A stretch of DNA of 64,000 nt from Candidatus Saccharimonadota bacterium (GCA_017552385.1 JAFZQB010000013.1:62001-126000); one strand, 5' to 3'; shown: positions 44,009-53,363, counted from the stretch's first letter. Notes: a model not told the origin generated them from the sequence alone. Translations and numbers: made by a program.

Positions 44009-44085
44009 GGATCTTTAGCTCAGCTGGCTAGAGCGTACGATTCACATTCGTAAGGTCGCTGGTTCGAGCCCAGCAAGATCCACCA
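44009..44085 (+). tRNA. tRNA-Val(CAC)
   Basis: Acceptor GGATCTT/AAGATCC, D-arm GCTCAGCTGGCTAGAGC, anticodon arm TACGA-TTCACAT-TCGTA (anticodon CAC, codon GUG), T-arm CTGGTTCGAGCCCAG, encoded CCA. Upstream extended -10 TGC-TATACT (about 43994-43999). The repeat island begins about 35 bp downstream. Confidence 0.95.
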
Positions 44086-44120
44086 AACGGTTTATGAAAT
44101 TATTTTTATCTATTCCGTAA

Positions 44121-44240
44121 TCTATAATTGTCTGTTAAATCCCTTGCAAGAATAGAGGGCTATTTTTGTGCCATTTTTACGACAAAAATACGTCGAGAAT
44201 CGTAATTTGCCTCTATAATTTTGTCTGTTAAATCCCTTGG
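44121..44240. repeat. Island repeat element 1 (one 93-bp module)
   Basis: Two near-identical copies of TCTATAATT..GTCTGTTAAATCCC start points at 44134 and 44227, exactly 93 bp apart. Between them lies an imperfect hairpin with terminal stem TAGAGG / CCTCTA and an A/T-rich inner stem ATTTTT/AAAAAT. It lies between tRNA-Val and the GNAT gene. Confidence 0.75.
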
Positions 44241-44250
44241 AATCCAGGTT

Positions 44251-44757
44251 TTATAATGGAATTCTCGTATAATAATGCGTATTATCCTCGCGCACAATTT
44301 TAGCGCCATTTTTTTGCTGTACTTTTAGAGATGCGGGGTTGTTCTTTAATACTGATAAATACAGCTCATCGGTGTCTATAGGCAATTTACGGGCTTCCTC
44401 AATGATGAGACGCAAACCCTCCGTGGCATAACCGTGGCCACGATATTCTTCTGCGACTCCATAGCCAACATGTCCAGCATTGTCCCTCAGCCAATCGTTT
44501 AGATAATGGCGCAGCTTAAATATTCCTACTGGGGTGTCGTCTACCCATAAGAAATAACAGGTGTCTGGCACATGTCCATCATCTAGGTTTTTTCCTTCAT
44601 CGTAGTCAAGCCACCTGGGGATAGTTTTATTTACGAATTCCTCAAAAGAAACACCGTAAGCCTTATTCTCGTAGCCATTTTCTTGAGCTGGAATTTTTTG
44701 TGCTAGTTCGTATTCTTTCGTGGCGTCCTCAAGATTGGCTTTCCTCAGATAAATCAT
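44251..44757 (-). CDS. GNAT-family N-acetyltransferase
   Basis: 168 aa. The acetyl-CoA motif A reads GVAEEYRGHGYATEGLRLI (Arg-Gly-x-Gly-x-Ala), followed by ELYLSVLKNNPASLKVQQKNGAKIV. Resembles the acetyltransferases seen in accessory regions; substrate unknown. Minus strand within the repeat island; leaderless-type promoter. Confidence 0.88.
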   Translation of the reverse strand: MIYLRKANLEDATKEYELAQKIPAQENGYENKAYGVSFEEFVNKTIPRWLDYDEGKNLDDGHVPDTCYFLWVDDTPVGIFKLRHYLNDWLRDNAGHVGYGVAEEYRGHGYATEGLRLIIEEARKLPIDTDELYLSVLKNNPASLKVQQKNGAKIVREDNTHYYTRIPL

Positions 44758-44763
44758 ATTATT

Positions 44764-44769
44764 ATTATA
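44764..44769 (-). promoter_or_regulatory. Extended -10 of the GNAT gene (leaderless type)
   Basis: TGG-TATAAT on the minus strand, 6 nt before the ATG at 44757; no SD. Confidence 0.6.
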
Positions 44770-44790
44770 CCACGTCCGGCAGAATTCTTC

Positions 44791-44990
44791 CTTATAGGCT
44801 ATTAATACCTGGCTAATTTTGTTCCATCAAGACGTATTAAAATCGGCAAAATGGCCGATTTTTTAGTAGTAAATTTCTGTTAAGTACCTTGTATGTTCTA
44901 GGGTGATATTTTGCATCGATTTTACACGAAAAATGGGGCAAAAATTACCATTCTACCCCTATAAAGTCGTCTGTTAATACCCTAAACCAT
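44791..44990. repeat. Island repeat element 2 (78- plus 94-bp modules)
   Basis: Boundary motif copies (A/G)TTAATACC, GTTAAGTACC and GTTAATACCC begin at 44801, 44879 and 44973. The first module holds a terminator-like hairpin AATCGGC...GCCGATT with six T. The second holds an A/T-rich hairpin between TAGGG and CCCCTA. No ORF is seen in the 308-bp gap 44758-45065. Confidence 0.75.
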
Positions 44991-45065
44991 TTGGTCTATA
45001 TGCTATAATATGAATGTTGGGCGCGAGAGCACACTCTCATTCTTAACGGAAGAGATCAAGCCAAC

Positions 45066-45761
45066 GTGATGTTAATATTTAATATTTTTTCGAAAGCGAA
45101 GTCAATCTATATGCGATCTACAATTGATAACCTTCAAATACTCTGGGATTTTCTCGTCAAGGAAGACTCTCTTGTGCAATCGGATATTATTATTGGATTT
45201 GGAAGCAACGATATCATGGTTGCTCACCGTGCTGCAAGTCTATATAAACTAAATTATGCACCACTGATTCTATTTACTGGTGGATTAGGGAAAGGAACGG
45301 CTGATAGTTGGAGCGAAAAGGAAGCGGATTTATTCGCGAAAATCGCTATAGATGATGGTGTGCCACTAGAGAAAATTGTAATAGAAAATAGATCGACTAA
45401 TACAGGAGAAAATATTCGCTTCTCCAAAGAGTTATTGTATAATCGAGGAATAACGGTCAATCTTGCAACGATTGTCCACCAGCCCAATATGGGACGACGA
45501 ATATACGCGGCGTTAAGAAAACAGTGGGCTGATATCAATGTTCAAATAGCACCTAGTAACTGCACGCTAAAAGAGTATATTCAGAATTTGAAGGCTACAG
45601 GCGTTGATGAAAACGAAATATTCTCAGACATCGTTGGAGATTTTCAACGAATTGATGTATTTGCAAAACAGGGGTACCAAATTGAGCAAAGTGCCCCCGA
45701 AGAGGCTTGGCAGGCGTTCTATTCTCTTTGCGAAGACGGTTATAATAAGTACATTGTATGA
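45066..45761 (+). CDS. DUF218 / YdcF-like protein
   Basis: 231 aa; the ATG at 45111 (MRSTIDNLQILWDF) is an equally good start. DUF218 pattern: DIIIGFGSND, LILFTGGLGKGTADSWSEKEADLFA, then IVIENRSTNTGENIRFSKELL. Proteins of this family are uncharacterised; some bind SAM or act on the envelope. Ends in TGA. A short leader hairpin GAGAG-CACA-CTCTC precedes it. Confidence 0.85.
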   Translation: MMLIFNIFSKAKSIYMRSTIDNLQILWDFLVKEDSLVQSDIIIGFGSNDIMVAHRAASLYKLNYAPLILFTGGLGKGTADSWSEKEADLFAKIAIDDGVPLEKIVIENRSTNTGENIRFSKELLYNRGITVNLATIVHQPNMGRRIYAALRKQWADINVQIAPSNCTLKEYIQNLKATGVDENEIFSDIVGDFQRIDVFAKQGYQIEQSAPEEAWQAFYSLCEDGYNKYIV

Positions 45762-45894
45762 AAAGCGTACTGCAACAATGAAAGAATTATAACAGAGACA
45801 AAATACAGTAATTTTTGTTGAAATAGGACCTACAAAATTAAATACGATACATCTAACATATTCCACTTATAGTTTATAAATAACCAGTTTATTC

Positions 45895-46105
45895 CTTATG
45901 TCTTCTCCATGCAGTGTTAATACCTGCCCAATTCGCCTCCACCAGATTTTATATAAGTCGGCATTTTGGCCGATTTTTTAGTGATAAATATCTGTTAAGT
46001 ACCTTGTATGTTTTAGGGTGCGATATTTAGGCATTTTTGCAGCAAAAACCGCCGAAAATGCGGTTTTTACCCCTGTCAAAATGTCTGTTAATACCCTAAA
46101 CAATG
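45895..46105. repeat. Island repeat element 3 (78- plus 93-bp modules)
   Basis: Boundary motifs GTTAATACC (45916), GTTAAGTACC (45994) and GTTAATACCC (46087). The 78-bp module carries GTCGGC...GCCGATTTTTT. The 93-bp module carries TTTTTGC-A-GCAAAAA and ACCGC...GCGGT inside the AGGGT/ACCCCT stem. The rest of the 398-bp gap 45762-46159 has no convincing gene. Confidence 0.75.
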
Positions 46106-46126
46106 AGGATGCAGTGCCAACCATTA

Positions 46127-46155
46127 AAAAACCAGACGAAAACGCCTGGTTTTTG
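46127..46155. terminator. Terminator of the gene at 46657
   Basis: Stem AAACCAG/CTGGTTT with T-runs in both directions; stop codon at 46160. Confidence 0.72.
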
Positions 46156-46159
46156 AGTT

Positions 46160-46657
46160 TTATGTTGCATGAGTGATAATATCTTTGCAACAGTGAATTT
46201 GTTCAAGGAGCTCGTCATTGCCATTTATTCCTTTATCGAGAGCACAATATTCGGCTTTTATACGATTCTCCTCTTCCTCTGAATAAACCTCTTCTGTGAC
46301 AATAACCTTTGATTTTCCTTGCTCTTGGAAGTATCCGAAGATGGATAGTGCAGCCCATGAACCACTCTCTGGATTTGTCAAGTCTGGCACAACATACATG
46401 AGCGGAGATTGCTCAGGATCATTTGACATCTTATAAAATGCAATACCTCTTGCCCCATTCCGACCATTTGGCGCAAAAGCCCCAGCAATGTATCGAATTC
46501 GATTGATGTCAGACATGTCGCTACGGTAAAGCTCGTCACAAAAGCCAAAGAATTCATCCTTTTCATTTACGACGATTTTCCCAGAAAAGGATGGATCAGG
46601 TTCTGACCATCTTCCAAATTGTACAAAGTTCCCAGAAATACTTAAAATACGACTCAC
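46160..46657 (-). CDS. Unknown protein, 165 aa, in repeat island
   Basis: GTG start at 46657, 8 nt after GGAGG; the earlier in-frame GTG overlaps the SD. Soluble mixed protein (FVQFGRWSEPDPSFSGKIVV, RYIAGAFAPNGRNGARGIAFY). C-terminal part acidic with a Cys pair (QIHCCKDI). Family not recognised. Confidence 0.65.
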   Translation of the reverse strand: MSRILSISGNFVQFGRWSEPDPSFSGKIVVNEKDEFFGFCDELYRSDMSDINRIRYIAGAFAPNGRNGARGIAFYKMSNDPEQSPLMYVVPDLTNPESGSWAALSIFGYFQEQGKSKVIVTEEVYSEEEENRIKAEYCALDKGINGNDELLEQIHCCKDIITHAT

Positions 46658-46734
46658 ATTTATCACCTCCTTAAAGTGAGTATGTGTCTATATTATAACA
46701 TTAAAACTTACAGATATCAACTAGCCCACCACGA

Positions 46735-46945
46735 ATGTCCTCTTTATAGATTGTTAATGCCTGCCTAATTCGCCCCCACCAGATTTTATAGAATCCCGAT
46801 TTTTCGCCATTTCGCCCCTGTAATTCGCTGTTAAGTAGCTTCGCGAGTTCAGGGGCTAATTTTTTTGACGATTTTTCCAGAAAATCGAGCCATGGATACG
46901 GTTCTACCTCTATTGTTTTGGCTGTTAAATCCCTAACGACTCGCT
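46735..46945. repeat. Island repeat element 4 (77- plus 93-bp modules)
   Basis: Boundary motifs GTTAATGCC (46753), GTTAAGTAGC (46830) and GTTAAATCCC (46923). The inner hairpin is CGATTTT-TCCA-GAAAATCG. Sequence beyond the last motif (ACTCGC) pairs with GCGAGT inside the module. Most diverged copy. No ORF in the 346-bp gap 46658-47003. Confidence 0.72.
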
Positions 46946-47003
46946 ACAATGCTGTAGGGCGTTTCATGGTATAATATAGCTAAAGATAAATTAAGGAGAA
47001 ATA

Positions 47004-47438
47004 ATGCCGGCAGTAATAGTGGGTGGGGTATTGGAAAAAGATAACAGGTATCTTCTCGTCCAAGAAGCTAAAGAAAAATGTCGAGGTAAGTGGAATTTGC
47101 CAGCTGGACATCTAGATCCTAATGAAACTATTTTTGAAGCCGCCAAGAGAGAGATAAAAGAAGAGAGTGGTCTAGATGTAGAATTGTCTGGAGTCTGTCA
47201 AATTGGTAATCGAAAACTTGAAGACGATATTTTTGTATCGGTAATTTTTTCAGCAAAGCTCTTAAATAACGATATACATTACGATCCAGACGAAATTCTT
47301 GATGTTAAATGGTTTACTTATGAAGAAATATTGTCAATGAAAGAATCGCTCAGGAATGAGCACCTGATTCTAGGAGCTATAAATAACGTACGCGATAATT
47401 TAGTGGCGCCAATTAGTATTGTGGAAATGTACGATTAG
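47004..47438 (+). CDS. NUDIX hydrolase
   Basis: 144 aa. Complete Nudix box GHLDPNETIFEAAKREIKEE followed by SGL (GX5EX7REUXEEXGU). Substrate class unknown (nucleoside diphosphate derivatives in general). SD AAGGAG; -10 TGG-TATAAT upstream. Last gene of the repeat island. Confidence 0.9.
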   Translation: MPAVIVGGVLEKDNRYLLVQEAKEKCRGKWNLPAGHLDPNETIFEAAKREIKEESGLDVELSGVCQIGNRKLEDDIFVSVIFSAKLLNNDIHYDPDEILDVKWFTYEEILSMKESLRNEHLILGAINNVRDNLVAPISIVEMYD

Positions 47439-47508: not shown

Positions 47509-48297
47509 TTATTCTTGTCGTTGTTTATTTAATAGAGAATCATAGGTATCATATGTTCCGTCCGAATATATTAGTGCAGAAGTTACATATCCAGAACCAC
47601 CCTCATTTTCTTCAGCATCTTTACGTTTTGCAAAAGCACCTATCTCATCTATCACATCAGTAACGAATCCATAGACATTAAGCTGCTTTGTAGAAATATC
47701 GGTTGTTTTGAGCGCATCATCCAATGGGAAATACCTAACCGTACCATCTTGCATTATAAAGACAATGAGAGGATTCCCCGCTTGACCGTGGGCTAAATAG
47801 TCAGTTTTATATATTTTTCCAGAAATGCCTAAAACACTACATTCGTGTTGCAAAACAGATTCTGTGCTAGATAGCTCGCAGTCTACTATACTACCGCCTC
47901 TCAGGCTAAGCCCAAGTGAATAGTTTTTGCCTGTTTCGTAGTCGTATATATGAAATTTTTTAGTAATCGTGTAAGTCTGAACAAGGTCACCTTCAGATGT
48001 TGTTGCCGGAATGATTGGATTCTGGCTCCTTGCTTCATGGCCTACAGTAGTTGCAGTCTGCGAACCATCATTGGCATCGGAGACGTTTTTTTCTTCATTT
48101 GATCCTATCTGGACTTTTAAGTCAGAGATTTGATTGTCTTTTTGCGCACTTTGCATCATACCATAAACACCAAAGCCAATGCCACAAATTGCCACAATAC
48201 ACGCAACCACGGTGGCGACCTTTAACACATTATTGCTTTTTTGTTTATCTTCTAACACTGGTATTATAGGCGCCCCAGTATCGATATTTTGCTCCAT
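47509..48297 (-). CDS. Membrane-anchored extracytoplasmic protein
   Basis: 262 aa. N-terminal ~25 polar residues, one TM helix (about 26-49: LKVATVVACIVAICGIGFGV), a short coiled segment (SAQKDNQISDLKVQIGSNEEK), then a beta-rich domain (IYDYETGKNYSLGLSLRGG) with two Cys (VDCELSS, HECSVLG). No family recognised. ATG at 48297; AAAGGA SD. Confidence 0.68.
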   Translation of the reverse strand: MEQNIDTGAPIIPVLEDKQKSNNVLKVATVVACIVAICGIGFGVYGMMQSAQKDNQISDLKVQIGSNEEKNVSDANDGSQTATTVGHEARSQNPIIPATTSEGDLVQTYTITKKFHIYDYETGKNYSLGLSLRGGSIVDCELSSTESVLQHECSVLGISGKIYKTDYLAHGQAGNPLIVFIMQDGTVRYFPLDDALKTTDISTKQLNVYGFVTDVIDEIGAFAKRKDAEENEGGSGYVTSALIYSDGTYDTYDSLLNKQRQE

Positions 48298-48396
48298 CAA
48301 ATTTCCTTTCTAAATACTTATGTTTCAATCATAACATGATCTGCTTTTGTTGTATATCTTTCTTGCGAAGTTTGTGTCTGCGTAGCCCGGGGTTTA

Positions 48397-50987: not shown

Positions 50988-51893
50988 CTAATTTACTTTG
51001 TTGATTGGTTCACTTACGGTCGAGATTATGGTCTGAACCCAGATATCGAACATTCTTTCGAGGGATTCTTTAGTGTAATAGGCATTCTTTGGAGTGACGA
51101 AGACGTTACCTTTGTATTCCTTACTTAAATCGTTATCTTCGAAGGCTACGCCGCCTAGTTTACCTTCTTCTACCATCTTGGCCATGCGGAGGGCTACGTC
51201 TTCGAAACCGTTGGCCACGATGATGACTTTGGTTTGAGGTCTAAATTTGGATAAGTCGTCGAACAAAGCGAGGCTTTCTGAATTCTTGGAAATGGTGATA
51301 AACATGTACTCGCTTTTTTCTAACATAGCGTCGAAATCTACATAGTGATACTCTGGATCGTTCTTGTCGTGTGAATAATAGCAGATCTCTTTTCTACCTA
51401 CGATGCCATCTAGTTTCTTTGCAAGTGCATGGCCAATGGCGCCAAAGCCAATTATGTCGGTAGGCTTGTCGTACATATCTTCGCCGATAAATTCTTTGTC
51501 CCAATTCATCTTTCCGTCTTTTTCGAAGAGCGGGAGCTTCTTTGCTAGAGCTAGAGCCATCATTACGCATTTCTCTGCGACGGAGTTCGTAGCGTAGTGA
51601 GGGACGTTAGTGACGGCAATTCCCTTCTTGGAACAATAATCGCAATCAACCCATTCATATCCAGTAGTTTCTAAACAAATAGCTTTCAAATTCGGGGTTT
51701 TGTCGATAACTTCGTTCTTGAATTCCCAACCTACTACGTCTGGGTCCAGAGCGATAGCTTTATCGTTTTTGTCATTATATAAAGGTTCATAATCAGGTTT
51801 ATCTATTATCTCGACGCTCTCGAACTTGTCTTTCAGAGTGTTTACCTGGTTTGTGGTTAAATCACTTTGTCGACAGTAAATATATAGATTCAT
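50988..51893 (-). CDS. D-2-hydroxyacid dehydrogenase homologue without catalytic Arg/His
   Basis: 301 aa. Fold clear: N-terminal catalytic-domain pattern (LKAICLETTGYEWVD, NSVAEKCVMMALALA) and Rossmann GFGAIGHALAKKL. The catalytic Arg (usual N-x-x-R-G) reads IVANGF (about residues 225-230). The catalytic His (usual TPHIA) reads TPKNAYYT (Lys269). So dehydrogenase activity is doubtful; it may bind NAD(H) as a sensor. Closest by motif to D-lactate dehydrogenases (AYYT). Monocistronic. Confidence 0.82.
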   Translation of the reverse strand: MNLYIYCRQSDLTTNQVNTLKDKFESVEIIDKPDYEPLYNDKNDKAIALDPDVVGWEFKNEVIDKTPNLKAICLETTGYEWVDCDYCSKKGIAVTNVPHYATNSVAEKCVMMALALAKKLPLFEKDGKMNWDKEFIGEDMYDKPTDIIGFGAIGHALAKKLDGIVGRKEICYYSHDKNDPEYHYVDFDAMLEKSEYMFITISKNSESLALFDDLSKFRPQTKVIIVANGFEDVALRMAKMVEEGKLGGVAFEDNDLSKEYKGNVFVTPKNAYYTKESLERMFDIWVQTIISTVSEPINKVN

Positions 51894-53276: not shown

Positions 53277-53363
53277 CCCCGAGTGGCGGAATTGGTATAC
53301 GCGGCGGACTTAAAATCCGCTCCCTTTACCGGGTTATGGGTCCGAGTCCCATCTCGGGGACCA
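53277..53363 (+). tRNA. tRNA-Leu(UAA)
   Basis: Acceptor CCCCGAG/CTCGGGG, D-arm GGCGGAATTGG, anticodon arm GCGGA-CTTAAAA-TCCGC (anticodon TAA, codon UUA), variable arm CCC...GGG, T-arm ATGGG-TCCGAGT-CCCAT, encoded CCA. Extended -10 TGG-TATAAT upstream. Confidence 0.95.

Follow-up and report, generated by a model that had tools for sequence, protein, structure and literature searches.

The gene island downstream of tRNA-Val(CAC) in the window (the whole stretch of 64,000 nucleotides analysed here, Candidatus Saccharimonadota bacterium, GCA_017552385.1, JAFZQB010000013.1:62001-126000) is very probably made up of non-autonomous integrative elements, usually with one gene each, which are arrayed in tandem from the tRNA gene onward and are moved by a site-specific recombinase acting in trans. 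The repeat element between the genes is an attachment (att) site, consisting of a left arm P, the core CCACCA and a right part P'. This core, which is also the 3' end of the tRNA, was overlooked in an earlier note on the island and makes sense of its layout. At the level of sequence comparison, the site, the moving unit, the breakpoint in the core, the tRNA 3' end as target, the tandem arrays and the transfer of cassettes from species to species and from tRNA to tRNA could be demonstrated.

In the proposed mechanism, a free cassette would be a circle carrying one att site P-core-P' with the core CCACCA. The trans-acting site-specific recombinase, presumably of the tyrosine type, would join the core of the cassette either to the CCACCA that closes a tRNA gene or to the core of a cassette already in place, and the arms would be its putative accessory binding sites. 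The product would read tRNA-core-P'...gene...P-core-flank with the tRNA undamaged, and successive insertions would build arrays of a single orientation. The circular intermediate is one that we infer; an excised circle was not observed.

The island in the window

The four genes named in the earlier note were confirmed in their alternating orientation, and the features of the island are as follows.

44009-44085, + strand: tRNA-Val(CAC), the insertion platform (ARAGORN)
44080-44085: recombination core CCACCA, the encoded 3' end of tRNA-Val(CAC) (from core identity and empty-site comparison)
44086-44236, + strand: attL-like site, P' of type A with arms GTTAAATCCC at 44134 and 44227
44086-44829: cassette 1, type A at both ends
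44251-44757, - strand: GNAT acetyltransferase, cargo of cassette 1
44802-44982, + strand: complete att site P-core-P' no. 1, with P (type A) at 44802-44823, core CCATCA instead of CCACCA at 44824-44829 and P' (type B) at 44830-44982
44830-45944: cassette 2, type B at both ends
45066-45761, + strand: DUF218 protein, cargo of cassette 2
45917-46096, + strand: complete att site no. 2, with P at 45917-45938, core CCACCA at 45939-45944 and P' (type B) at 45945-46096
45945-46781: cassette 3, type B at both ends
46160-46666, - strand: 168-aa protein without assigned function, cargo of cassette 3
46754-46933, + strand: complete att site no. 3, with P at 46754-46775, core CCACCA at 46776-46781 and P' (divergent subtype) at 46782-46933
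47004-47438, + strand: NUDIX hydrolase, cargo of cassette 4, which starts at 46782
47509-48300, - strand: gene of the MEQN family, a recurrent cassette-cargo family, 3' of the NUDIX gene

The window holds one truncated copy of the element, which takes its core from the tRNA-Val 3' end, and three complete ones. The left part is missing from the first copy because the tRNA-Val(CAC) gene itself, with its encoded 3' end, provides the CCACCA. The boundary motifs reported in the earlier note were found in place, with trivial differences only (46924 in place of 46923, and ATTAATACC at 44801), and the motif variants GTTAAGTACC and GTTAAGTAGC at 44879, 45994 and 46830 differ trivially from the motif it gave. 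Its spacings were reproduced as 93, 78+94 and 78+93 bp, and only the last pair had to be revised, to 77+94 bp from a final value of 93. What the note took for the boundaries of the units, the GTTAA motifs, turned out to be arm-like flanking sites, and the recombination occurs at CCACCA.

No recognisable right border was found for cassette 4. The homology of the neighbouring MEQN gene to its other copies stops at about 48365, just short of their P arm, and the right border of the island (attR) has therefore been lost in this genome. Relatives of the cargo genes were found in cassettes elsewhere: the NUDIX family of cassette 4 also forms a cassette at tRNA-Ala(CGC) in locus L048 and at tRNA-Val(CAC) in L078, and a close relative of the 168-aa protein, from another genus, is flanked on both sides by att sites of this kind (L259:14236-14742). 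Farther downstream, at 50988-51893, a D-2-hydroxyacid dehydrogenase-like gene shows 76% identity over 933 bp to cassette genes of L066 and L260 and has no recognisable att site; accessory DNA seems to reach on toward tRNA-Leu(TAA) at 53277.

Structure and distribution of the att site

Alignment of the copies gave a common layout: an arm (T)GTTAA(N)(N)CC, about 12 bp, CCACCA, 48-49 bp, a second arm, 83 bp and a third arm. The P part is about 22 bp long, and P' is about 150 bp long with two GTTAANNCC arms spaced 93-94 bp; counted from the core, the GTTAANNCC arms of the whole site lie near -29, +48 and +141. Two main types were distinguished. Type A has P = GTTAAAACCTGG and P' arms GTTAAATCCC; type B has P = GTTAAT(A/G)CCTGCC, P' arms GTTAAGTACC and GTTAATACCC, and a terminator-like hairpin immediately 3' of the core. 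The P' at 46782-46933 and those at L026:6572, L029:7632 and L083:5287 have GAGCCATGGATACGG in common and make up a third, rarer subtype, perhaps a third recognition group.

The constant module length remarked in the earlier note proved to be constrained across the genus, where the arms are spaced 93 or 94 bp in 62 of 76 unique modules and the distance from core to first arm is 48-49 bp in 69 of the 76. The note had also described an AGGG...CCCT closing pair; in type A its sequence is conserved (95% paired), in type B the paired share is only 57%, and covariation is lacking within types. A structured RNA or hairpin element, as the note suggested, was rejected: three of the four window elements fold no better than shuffled sequences, only the tRNA attains the Rfam threshold, and within-type covariation is missing from the sites as a whole.

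The repeat is far beyond chance. With the copy after tRNA-Val as DNA query, the non-tRNA part was matched in other genomes with E-values down to 1.9e-41, and within the genus the query of tRNA plus repeat found matches both behind tRNA-Val and elsewhere. A strict count of the triple motif in the window's own genome was uninformative, the middle arm being deviant. A profile of the four window copies recovered 31 copies in 20 relative loci, and 85 of the 118 genomes of the genus, with at most 10 copies per genome, were matched by a model built on sequence only. Across the order, matches were obtained in 3 of 132 genera, all three within one family. Where the records bear a name, they are Candidatus Saccharibacteria genomes, the majority from gut samples of sheep, goat, cattle, buffalo and yak.

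Cassette arrays and their tRNA targets

Maps of about 80 loci revealed a common plan, in which a tRNA ending in CCACCA is followed by P', a gene, a complete site, a further gene, a further complete site and so on, up to a last P-core alone. A cassette accordingly reads core-P'-gene-P-core, usually with one gene, and the orientation of the sites relative to the tRNA was uniform across the mapped loci. The occupied targets were tRNA-Val(CAC, TAC), Leu(CAA), Ile(GAT, TAT), Met, Phe, Ala(CGC) and Gln(TTG, CTG). Among the examined loci, 53 of 113 tRNAs ending in CCACCA were occupied, versus 0 of about 63 with other ends; the loci had been picked for repeats and the occupancy is hence biased, with the contrast by tRNA end still clear. 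The occupied tRNAs of these loci all end in CCACCA except the two Gln genes, which end in CCAGCCA, and the Gln(CTG) cassette has the same CCAGCCA as its right-border core. The half-sites that terminate the arrays (attR, P-core only) are often followed by a hairpin resembling an intrinsic terminator, which would fit the displaced terminator of the tRNA.

Evidence for site-specific movement

Each cassette carries matching arm types at its two ends, with 37 AA, 20 BB and no mixed cassettes (n=57; Fisher p=8e-16). Where P and P' adjoin at a junction, by contrast, their types are freely combined (15/8/6/9, p=0.19). Matched ends together with mixed junctions are what a crossover in the core during excision and insertion predicts, and would be hard to obtain otherwise.

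Homologous cassettes at different tRNAs, for example those of L048 (tRNA-Ala) and L078 (tRNA-Val) or of L051 and L057 (tRNA-Leu), are 87-97% identical, and on the right their alignments break off at the core, with an offset of 0 to +6. On the left side the alignments begin at the core or continue into the conserved tRNA sequence. Between genomes, identity in the core-gene DNA beside the tRNA (nrd flank) is mostly about 70-85%.

The locus between tRNA-Val(CAC) and nrd, a gene that follows this tRNA in many genomes, was compared for gain or loss of whole units, as the earlier note had proposed, and this was seen. The tRNA and nrd are contiguous in G008 (L086), G156 and G014, and whole gene-plus-site units lie between them in G116 (L079), G135 (L074) and G061 (L104). 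The empty site of G008 reads tRNA-Val...CCACCA/TTTTTTGTG... and attR of G116 reads ...GCCCCACCA/TTTTTTATA..., and the sequence after CCACCA in the former (TTTTTTGTG...) matches that after the core in the latter (TTTTTTATA...) down to the same nrd leader. This is an orthologous empty site, joined exactly after CCACCA. With the empty site, the end-type matching and the breakpoints in the core, the idea of mobile gene cassettes with a recombination element between them was borne out. The same genes without repeats in related genomes, or repeats surviving as degraded terminators of no conserved length, would have spoken against it according to the earlier note; both were looked for and neither was found.

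Cargo of the cassettes

Measured between sites, the 59 cassettes have a median length of 936 bp, and they hold about one gene each. An open reading frame of at least 120 aa was present in 51 of them, pointing toward the tRNA in 42 and away from it in 9 (p=3e-6). A median of 78 bp separates the start codon from P, which by its length may leave room for a promoter of the gene's own. The cargo includes NUDIX, GNAT, DHH, serine hydrolase, short-chain dehydrogenase, ABC transporter, peptide deformylase, VanY, cupin, PIF1-like helicase, LRR protease-like, HAD, methyltransferase, LysE and MEQN-family proteins and a type II restriction-modification pair; no recombinase was found among the cargo of the mapped cassettes. 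The restriction-modification pair, an EcoO109I-like endonuclease with a C5 methylase, is complete in a tRNA-Gln(CTG) cassette (L261:4176-6219). In the MEQN family the N-terminus (MEQN...) is conserved, a hydrophobic segment is present and the C-terminal parts are highly variable; besides the window copy (47509-48300), members were found in L037, L049, L057, L063, L068, L080, L272 and L275, with two different members in consecutive positions in the L063 array.

The recombinase and alternative explanations

The earlier note had reported no recombinase in the window, which agrees with our searches: the genome has just two tyrosine recombinases, both of Xer type and both on other contigs, and no serine recombinase was found in it. 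No integrase was found within any mapped array (about 80 loci), and 40 loci around extra tyrosine recombinases, which many genomes of the genus possess, contained no att site; the enzyme therefore acts in trans. A recombinase whose presence tracks with the repeats, which the note had suggested looking for, was sought and none was found. Serine recombinases occur in 36 of 60 genus genomes and were rejected, being absent from the window's own genome and from the carriers G003, G009, G017, G024, G028, G035, G062, G068, G071 and G078. An Xer-type tyrosine recombinase is nearly universal in the genus (60 genomes). It is the sole tyrosine recombinase in G003, G009, G024, G028, G035, G068 and G078, all of them cassette carriers, and the only recombinase detected in these seven; it is also present in cassette-free genomes, and its presence does not track the cassettes. 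The housekeeping Xer is the simplest candidate for the enzyme, a guess to which we give somewhat less than even weight. A consensus search for dif in the window's own genome gave no convincing or recurring candidate for comparison with the core.

A different source of the enzyme is equally possible, if short of probable: the cassettes could be cis-mobilizable elements proper, served by an integrase whose gene lies on another mobile element (phage, plasmid or conjugative element) that has the same att arms and is present only transiently. Tyrosine integrases typically have an att layout of this kind, with a core at the tRNA 3' end and arm-like direct repeats, extra tyrosine recombinases are present in many genomes, and tandem accretion at tRNA 3' ends is already known (PMC5704250), but the extra recombinases of the 40 loci are all distant from these att sites, and the seven carriers have Xer alone. 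Among IMG/VR viral contigs, three patterns for the type A/B site gave no match, and a looser pattern gave 30 matches, none significant by the full model. No autonomous element with the same att sites was found in the mapped loci, the 40 recombinase loci or the IMG/VR patterns. In inserting behind a fixed short motif without target duplication, and in having a long left end that is non-coding, the cassettes resemble the IS200/IS605 and IS110 families. Transposition of gene-carrying ends in trans, by an enzyme of the HUH (IS200/IS605) or the bridge-RNA (IS110) kind, is nevertheless very unlikely, with Y1 transposase and IS110 in 2 of 60 genomes each, generally not the cassette-rich ones, and a conserved structure absent.

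The likeness to integrons drawn in the earlier note does not hold in the sense of a true cassette integron, with IntI and folded attC-type sites. Single-gene cassettes are arrayed behind one platform, arms such as GTTAAAT are compatible with the half-site GTTRRRY, and the integron-integrase model TIGR02249 does match Xer; yet the match is far below the cut-off (125.7 bits vs 265 for the own-genome Xer, which lies above the XerA cut-off), and IntI is absent from the genome. An RYYYAAC partner for attC pairing was found in only 2 of 76 modules (chance 0.95), and many tRNA genes form the platform. The integron reading, to which we assign hardly any probability, is refuted by the position of the breakpoint, which lies at CCACCA, 48-141 bp away from the GTT arms, and not at G/TT of GTTRRRY. 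Equally remote is an accumulation of non-mobile repeats (terminators, REP-like or regulatory) after tRNAs, in islands shuffled by homologous recombination: the terminator-like hairpin of type B right after the core and the variability of the neighbouring genes would suit it, but not the exact empty site, the end-type matching, the 6-bp core breakpoints or the P-core half-sites as right border.

Comparison with known systems

Among known mechanisms, the accretion of cis-mobilizable elements (CIMEs) at tRNA genes and the Xer modules come closest. Tandem accretion of att-flanked, integrase-free units (CIMEs) at a tRNA 3' end has been reported (PMC5704250). Like the cassettes, CIMEs have att sites at both ends, lack integrase and transfer genes and stand in tandem at a tRNA 3' end, but they are described as decayed ICEs or IMEs, whereas the cassettes are one-gene units of about 1 kb with intact, compact, type-matched att sites, occur at many tRNA isotypes and have no autonomous parent that we found. 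Integron cassettes are similar in being single-gene units with one att site each, in arrays grown from a platform and with very diverse cargo; they differ in that here there are no IntI or attC half-sites, the breakpoint is CCACCA, a tRNA gene is the platform and about 5/6 of the genes point toward the tRNA. The pdif modules of Acinetobacter are genes flanked by sites that the housekeeping Xer could use (PMC7399989), and their sites are short XerC/XerD sites without accessory sequence, in contrast to the CCACCA core, the arms over about 150 bp and the tRNA anchoring found here. Tycheposons, cargo elements of 4-200 kb at tRNA genes, carry a tyrosine recombinase (PMC10872708); the location at tRNA genes is common to both, whereas our units are about 1 kb and recombinase-free. 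The Dehalococcoides genomic islands at ssrA stand in tandem at an RNA gene, and some are integrase-free (PMC3146451), but unlike the cassettes they are large, have a serine recombinase module, occupy one locus and share only a 20-bp repeat. No published description of the present system was found in the literature searched, which comprised open PMC papers. It is distinct by unit size, one-gene content, compact matched att sites, many tRNA targets and the failure to find an autonomous element, and there is a fair chance that it deserves a class of its own. A fuller version, in which all CCACCA-ending tRNAs form the platform of a separate gene-capture class analogous to integrons, with the chromosomal Xer moving single-gene circles and a cassette pool shared by reduced-genome epibionts, is put forward tentatively and is on balance doubtful.

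Saccharibacteria combine very small genomes with a life on other bacteria, and to our knowledge little is known of how they acquire genes. Cassettes anchored at tRNA genes would explain the entry and exit of single accessory genes, such as those for NUDIX, GNAT, restriction-modification and surface-like proteins, and the att site would offer a simple signature for locating mobile genes in these genomes. The system would be a second, IntI-independent route to integron-like arrays and, should the enzyme prove to be Xer, gene capture would be driven by a housekeeping recombinase.

Additional observations

A second Xer-like recombinase of the window's genome, interrupted by a contig end, was located at G000:C10:1-648 (L084); its relatives in G001, G031, G067, G083 and G007 have no att sites nearby. 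Extra tRNA 3'-end fragments adjoin att sites at L028:13770-13830, L035:19073, L034:10207 and L066:6560 and are probably scars that were left at these genes by other elements integrating into tRNAs. A type A site is also borne by L232 (CADAQV010000050.1), which is filed under a Lachnospiraceae genome and is most likely a misbinned Saccharibacteria contig. Many assembly contigs break off within about 1 kb of att sites (for example at G085:C3:274, G091:C11:35, G076:C29:126 and G087:C27:738 and at the ends of G008:C2 and G123:C1), as would be expected of populations whose members differ in their cassettes, or simply from the repeated nature of the site.
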